64,000 bases of DNA from Microscillaceae bacterium (GTDB taxonomy: Bacteria > Bacteroidota > Bacteroidia > Cytophagales > Microscillaceae): positions 1-64,000 of the forward strand of contig JAAUUB010000003.1 in assembly GCA_012031215.1 (NCBI GenBank), read 5' to 3'. Shown one piece after another: positions 3,080 through 3,216 of the stretch (position 1 is the first letter of the stretch; each line of letters begins with the position of its first letter). The translations under genes and the position numbers were made by a program. A model generated the notes under the pieces. That model searched no databases, was not told the origin of the DNA, and saw only the letters and a list, made by a program, of their open reading frames with translations.

Positions 3080-3216
3080 GACACACAACGGAAAAGGCTT
3101 GGCGAAGGCGGGGGTTTAATAGCACCGCACTTCAAACAAGCACAAAAGTAAATAAAAAGCACTTCCCTACAAATTAGCACATCAGTCCCGCTTTTCGCCA
3201 AGCCAATGTTGGCTGA
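3080..3216 (-). repeat. attC-like recombination site B, between the two cassettes
   Basis: A long imperfect inverted repeat. Arm 3096-3111 (GGCTTGGCGAAGGCGGG) pairs with arm 3187-3204 (CCCGCTTTTCGCCAAGCC). The outer box GTTGGCTGA (3208-3216) is complementary to TCAGCCAAC at 3888-3896, the far end of the toxin-antitoxin cassette, so site B belongs to that cassette. The other outer box GACACACAAC (3080-3089) is the start of the cobalamin cassette. The loop shares short blocks with site A (TTTAATAGCAC and AAATTAGCACAT), so the two sites belong to one family although their stem sequences differ. Confidence 0.75.
3143..3173 (-). promoter_or_regulatory. Bacteroidota-type promoter inside the attC loop, upstream of the cobalamin operon
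   Basis: On the minus strand TTTG (3173-3170) is followed by exactly 19 nt and then TACTTTTG (3150-3143). This matches the Bacteroidota housekeeping consensus TTTG-N19-TAnnTTTG in every fixed position. Transcription would start near 3138, giving a leader of about 90 nt before the DUF6580 gene at 3048. The promoter sits between the two stems of attC site B, so it belongs to the upstream cassette but drives the downstream one. Confidence 0.65.

Follow-up and report, generated by a model that had tools for sequence, protein, structure and literature searches.

Organization of the locus

The window, by which we mean the whole stretch of 64,000 nucleotides analyzed here, begins at a contig end. 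The features discussed in this work lie near that end and are read on the minus strand, in the following order: an attI-like scar (3930–3870), a PIN toxin-antitoxin cassette, an attC-like site which we call site B, a cobalamin cassette, and a second attC-like site, site A. The features are:

3870–3930, minus strand: attI-like scar, the 3' tail of an integrase followed by an insertion point, ending in AATGCGAACTAAAGGGCGTATAAGTAGATGTTGGCTG; DNA matches in contig C158 (62 bp, 85% identity) and at the 3' end of the integrase gene in contig C79 (75 bp, 79% identity)
3206–3898, no strand: toxin-antitoxin cassette, with ends ATGTTGGCTGAATTTGT / ACAATTTCAGCCAACAT (inverted repeat I6, 17 nt, 94%)
3625–3852, minus strand: small antitoxin-like partner gene of the PIN toxin (open reading frame and position; no Pfam match)
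3222–3644, minus strand: PIN-domain toxin-like gene of this first cassette, which precedes the cobalamin cassette (PF13470, E 2.4e-18)
3087–3213, minus strand: attC-like site B, subfamily I, with R'' GCCAAC, stem GGCTTGGCGAAAAGCGGG / CCCGCCTTCGCCAAGCC and R' GTTG (alignments; fold; covariance model 107.6 bits, E 1.1e-20, a score which describes membership and is no proof, as site B is one of the 32 sequences behind the model)
3075–3089, plus strand: opposite end of the cobalamin cassette, AAAATGACACACAAC (inverted repeat I10)
2473–3048, minus strand: DUF6580 membrane protein gene, first of the cobalamin cassette (PF20221, E 1.6e-54)
1476–2480, minus strand: cobT-like phosphoribosyltransferase gene (PF02277, E 9e-127)
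687–1442, minus strand: cobS-like cobalamin-5-phosphate synthase gene (PF02654, E 4.8e-56)
295–732, minus strand: cobC-like histidine phosphatase gene (PF00300, E 1.4e-21)
126–140, plus strand: cassette-end repeat GTTGTGTGTCGTTTT, which pairs with 3075–3089 (inverted repeat I10)
2–131, minus strand: attC-like site A, subfamily II, end of the cobalamin cassette, truncated by the contig start (covariance model 94.2 bits)

Site B was first recognized as attC-like through independent DNA matches within the same genome. The match of the scar in C79 covers the 3' terminus of a recombinase gene which is intact there, and the adjoining insertion point, while the array in the window only has the integrase tail: The recombinase gene itself has been lost. 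The same arrangement, the 3' tail of a recombinase gene with the insertion-point sequence AATGCGAACYAAAGKGCGTATAAGTASATGTTG after it, is found in three copies in this genome (3870–3930 in the window, about 1040–1015 in locus L016, and about 4320–4385 in locus L017), and the AATGCGAACYAAAGKGCGTATAAGTASATGTTG junction is a likely candidate for an attI site. The sequence past the recombinase gene is different in the one other genome that we inspected for an attI-like junction.

By the standards of integron cassettes, the cobalamin cassette with its four genes (295–3048) is large: The cassettes found in this work have a median size of 1.4 kb. Six contigs of this genome (C138, C194, C20, C203, C59, and C196) begin no more than about 600 bases away from an attC-like site, which in the case of C138 is site A itself. 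Since several contigs begin near such sites, the arrays of this genome have probably been broken by the assembly, and they may be larger than they appear.

A promoter consensus in the loop of site B

The minus strand from 3173 to 3143 reads TTTGTAGGGAAGTGCTTTTTATTTACTTTTG, that is, TTTG-N19-TACTTTTG. It lies between the arms GGCTTGGCGAA...TTCGCCAAGCC of the stem of site B, as seen in both alignment and fold, and 94 bp upstream of the cobalamin cassette, whose first ATG is at 3048. The original prediction, an exact motif between the stem arms of an attC site and on the strand that reads towards the cobalamin genes, is thus borne out by pattern matching. The corresponding features are:

3170–3173, minus strand: TTTG, similar to a -33 element (pattern match)
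3143–3150, minus strand: -7 box TACTTTTG, which agrees with the TAnnTTTG element of Bacteroidota sigmaA promoters (pattern match)
3049–3138, minus strand: predicted 5' leader of the cobalamin cassette, which would include only the 3' half of the attC site (from the coordinates)

The transcription start would be expected at about 3138, 5 nt past the -7 box, if this box occupies -12 to -5, the position which it has in the sigmaA promoters of F. psychrophilum (PMC9723704). The pattern with this exact spacing is found three times in both strands of the whole window, 0.49 being expected by chance, and its TTG form with N18–21 appears in 0.7% of dinucleotide-shuffled attC sites. Site A had been described as a poorer match, and this is correct: It has TTTG-N22-AACTTTTG, with nine of ten positions in agreement.

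Promoters of the TTTG/TAnnTTTG type are used in this genome. The consensus is found 14 times in 32 kb of intergenic sequence, a count which includes three matches within attC-like sites, site B among them, and 12 times in 132 kb of genic sequence, so that matches are about fivefold denser between genes. There are 502 matches in the complete genome and 182 for the reversed pattern. One of the 14 intergenic matches, TTTG-N19-TATATTTG, is located directly before the array-linked integrase gene of C79.

The motif had been called a perfect promoter. This holds when it is compared with the textbook Bacteroides consensus, as both boxes match those of Bacteroidota sigmaA promoters (PMC7366714, PMC9723704). 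The spacing agrees less well: In 420 regions upstream of other genes, taken from the Bacteroidota loci which we have fetched, N20 is found 14 times, N21 six times, and N22 five times, but N19 only three times. The N19 of site B lies below this peak.

Whether site B is an active promoter in the cell is, judging from its sequence, about an even bet. In favor of activity are the use of the consensus in this genome, its presence with the same N19 spacing before the integrase gene of C79, the loss of the recombinase gene from the window, and the short distance between attC and the start codon. This gap is about 39 nt at site B (the family median is 42 nt), and therefore leaves little space for another promoter before the cobalamin ATG. 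Against it are the spacing and the fact that sequence is a poor predictor of cassette promoters: In Vibrio, promoter prediction in cassettes failed to predict the activity that was measured (PMC11014356). The sequence match, its strand, its conservation within one subfamily, and its absence from the family at large are shown by our data, and from these we infer the activity, the start site, and any benefit of this candidate promoter. If it is active, transcripts from about 3138 would run into the cobalamin cassette, and they would be unable to form the attC hairpin because the 5' arm of attC would be absent from them. This hairpin has been reported to reduce the translation of the following cassette (PMC8876359). 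In a search of the leader for a cobalamin riboswitch or any known RNA family, only chance-level matches were obtained.

Promoters within cassettes have been described in other bacteria. Gene-less cassettes of Vibrio and Treponema carry promoters which drive the following cassettes, and in one Vibrio cassette a transcription start even falls inside attC (PMC11014356, PMC6557892). Most of these promoters are located in the cassette body, while the candidate described here is part of an attC loop, and the cassette in question contains genes. In a search confined to the open literature, we have found no direct precedent for attC promoters or for Bacteroidota arrays of this type.

Distribution of the motif among related sites

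A pattern scan of public genomes gave 69 loci. The majority are true sites from Bacteroidota, and about ten are chance matches in other phyla. From the loci that we fetched, 244 full sites were assembled, which form 85 clusters at 80% identity. The original prediction went beyond site B: A promoter in the attC loop would let every cassette express the one that follows, and conservation of the motif in related attC sites was proposed as a check. This idea finds no support in the family as a whole, and conservation is limited to the small subfamily of site B. The pattern TTG-N17–23-TAnnTTTG is present in only 14 of the 244 sites and in five of the 85 cluster representatives. At the place of the -7 box the family consensus is AAnnTTWG, and the base that should be T (-12) is A in 80% of the sites, G in 14%, and T in 5%. 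Among the well-spaced matches upstream of other genes, from the same 420 regions, 23 of 30 have a T at this position. Such a difference indicates that the consensus of the family is not that of a promoter.

Some of our data do agree with a general promoter in the loop. The 14 sense matches are accompanied by only one antisense match in the 244 sites. Match density is 0.49 per kb in attC, 0.26 in the gap between attC and ATG, and 0.11 in upstream tails; the rate of perfect matches, 4.7%, is near the 5.7% found upstream of other genes; and 84% of the next open reading frames are in sense orientation. Matches with at most one mismatch are also more abundant than expected: They are found in 33% of the attC clusters, as compared with 7% for the opposite strand and 10% for shuffled sequences. 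We considered this excess over shuffles and column shuffles as possible support and rejected it, since the control with wrong spacings shows the same excess: Near-matches with N10–12, N28–30, or N36–38 are as frequent as those with N18–20. The excess in the family arises because the loop repeats, which are described below, are rich in T. The consensus, the spacing scan, and the preference at -12 rule out a universal loop promoter, and we regard the proposal that each cassette drives the next across the attC family as very improbable.

The situation is different in subfamily I, to which site B belongs. Thirteen sites share its stem or its loop, and seven of them have the perfect motif. In the ten core sites the TA and the 19 nt spacing are invariant, with single changes at other positions. 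Columns of the motif are 96% conserved and other loop columns 89%, which is a weak difference; six of the ten motif columns are invariant, as compared with 30 of 64 in the rest of the loop. Members of the subfamily come from several genera. It is nevertheless rare: The exact stem pattern appears in seven of 391 genomes of the order and in two of 396 genomes of the phylum sample. These 396 genomes added a single subfamily I site, which had been found previously. No relatives of site B were found on plasmids or phages, and its stem was not found on viral contigs.

Three sites of Riemerella anatipestifer (113–239, 1456–1582, and 3597–3718 in locus L071) have TTG-N19/20-TAnnTTTG in the sense orientation, and their loops share little sequence with that of site B. 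To judge by this, they are possibly independent gains of a loop promoter. We also looked for runs of T after the 3' arm, as would be expected for an attC site acting as a terminator, and found no link between them and promoter-like loops.

Direct repeats in the loop

The loops contain direct repeats of about 18.5 nt, similar to GTGCTTCGTATGAACTTT, which extend over the whole loop and are conserved across the 85 clusters. Self-matches of six bases appear 187 times at lag 18 and 257 times at lag 19, with about 57 expected at each, and 412 times at lag 37, with 18 expected. In site B they are seen as follows:

3122–3180, minus strand: direct repeats GTGC at 3177–3180, 3159–3162, 3140–3143, and 3122–3125, with steps of 18, 19, and 18 (read from the sequence; family periodicity)

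Within the -7 box, TTTG overlaps the third GTGC unit and the conserved TTNGTGC repeat, and a change of the usual GAAC to TTAC is enough to yield TAnnTTTG. Our reading of the sequence is that most of the motif probably derives from the loop repeat.

The motif might then be a mere by-product of the repeats, and the cobalamin cassette would owe its expression to an upstream promoter or to transcripts that read through from the toxin-antitoxin cassette. We consider this possible, if on balance somewhat doubtful. The overlap with TTNGTGC and the lack of any spacing preference across the family fit it well, and read-through transcription across attC is established for integrons (PMC8876359). On the other hand, subfamily I members from several genera keep the exact match, its spacing, and the TA, and this genome clearly makes use of the consensus.

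Another explanation is that the repeats are putative binding sites for a protein, either the recombinase or a regulator, and the resemblance to a promoter is secondary. The repeat distances of 18/19 and 37 nt, which are shared by 85 divergent clusters, would suit this role, but the repeats may instead reflect a constraint imposed by the single-stranded fold, or have been left behind by tandem duplication. We think that this explanation is rather unlikely.

The reading which we favor, and hold to be reasonably probable, is that the loop of site B acquired a promoter consensus through changes in its repeats, and that this happened in one rare subfamily and is not a device of the whole family. 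Site B would be an attC-type recombination site which ends the toxin-antitoxin cassette and belongs to the first positions of an integron-like array that has decayed. The sigmaA-type consensus in its loop most likely came from small changes in the direct repeats (GAACWTTTG, the family form, to TTACWTTTG), which would have arisen by drift and been inherited within the subfamily. Read-through from the toxin-antitoxin cassette counts against this reading, as it would make a promoter in site B unnecessary. Promoters built into attC would be a tempting explanation for the expression of distant cassettes in an array. They do not provide it in this family, but one may have been gained by single sites.

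An integron-like system in Bacteroidota

The wider system around site B is the most valuable outcome of this work. Of the 396 Bacteroidota genomes sampled, 167 (about 42%) contain the site family according to the covariance model, and it is found in 93 of 172 genera. In the survey with IntegronFinder 2.0, Salinibacter ruber is the only Bacteroidetes species for which a complete integron is named (PMC9024848); elsewhere, integrons have been recorded for Bacteroidota (PMC8618304). The contrast between attC-type arrays in about 42% of the genomes and a single species in that survey, together with the recombinases described below, is a larger point than the promoter itself.

The sites share many features with the attC sites of integrons. 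They are imperfect palindromes of about 125 bp, with R and L arms, the latter paired, and an unpaired spacer. The arrays are also similar: Cassettes are in tandem and in one orientation, some of them contain toxin-antitoxin genes, and, in this genome, a possible attI-like junction is seen beside the recombinase gene. Each cassette start is complementary to its own end. In 110 cassettes, the bases after GTT match those before the AAC of their own attC at positions 1–6 in 68–78% of the cases, as compared with 28–56% in shuffled pairs, and both cassettes in the window also have complementary ends. As this is a signature of attC cassettes, the term integron-like is well founded.

The recombinases are different. 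The recombinase of C79 (1038–2711 in L016) and its homologues are found near arrays in at least a dozen of the loci that we fetched. Most of them lie upstream of the array and share its direction; same-direction integrases are also known in Treponema (PMC3607928). In these proteins, the match to the integron integrase model is split into positions 3–179 and 239–315. In an alignment with the true IntI of genome G016, eight of them (from C79, L070, L153, L154, L164, L167, L172, and L178) lack about 42 residues, which correspond to the IntI-specific insertion. They keep the C-terminal SPLD/SPFD motif and the catalytic residues, except for one arginine in L178 (GLS instead of GLR). The insertion has been described as essential for integron function, and it is not fully conserved in a subgroup of integron-like recombinases (PMC8138268). 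The integrons of Treponema differ in this respect, as their intI genes are of the integron type according to the published description. Among 30 genomes rich in arrays, only one contains an IntI that exceeds the NCBIfam curated cut-off, and this IntI is located on a different contig from the array. In G016, a true IntI (C32) coexists with an array which adjoins a recombinase without the insertion (C30).

The system therefore appears to work like an integron, yet the eight aligned recombinases do not have the additional domain of a linked IntI, which is part of the definition. From its position, the linked recombinase presumably acts on these attC-like sites. A second difference from integrons is the conservation of 18.5 nt direct repeats in the loops. 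We tentatively suggest, as a possibility that we rate below an even chance, a system extended through the phylum Bacteroidota in which Xer/IntI-like recombinases without the insertion move attC-type cassettes, the loop repeats would partly replace the insertion, for example by binding the recombinase, and a promoter would have appeared in one subfamily.

An attC-like site of about 190 nt is found in L154 (8666–8856), where an AT-rich insert enlarges the loop.
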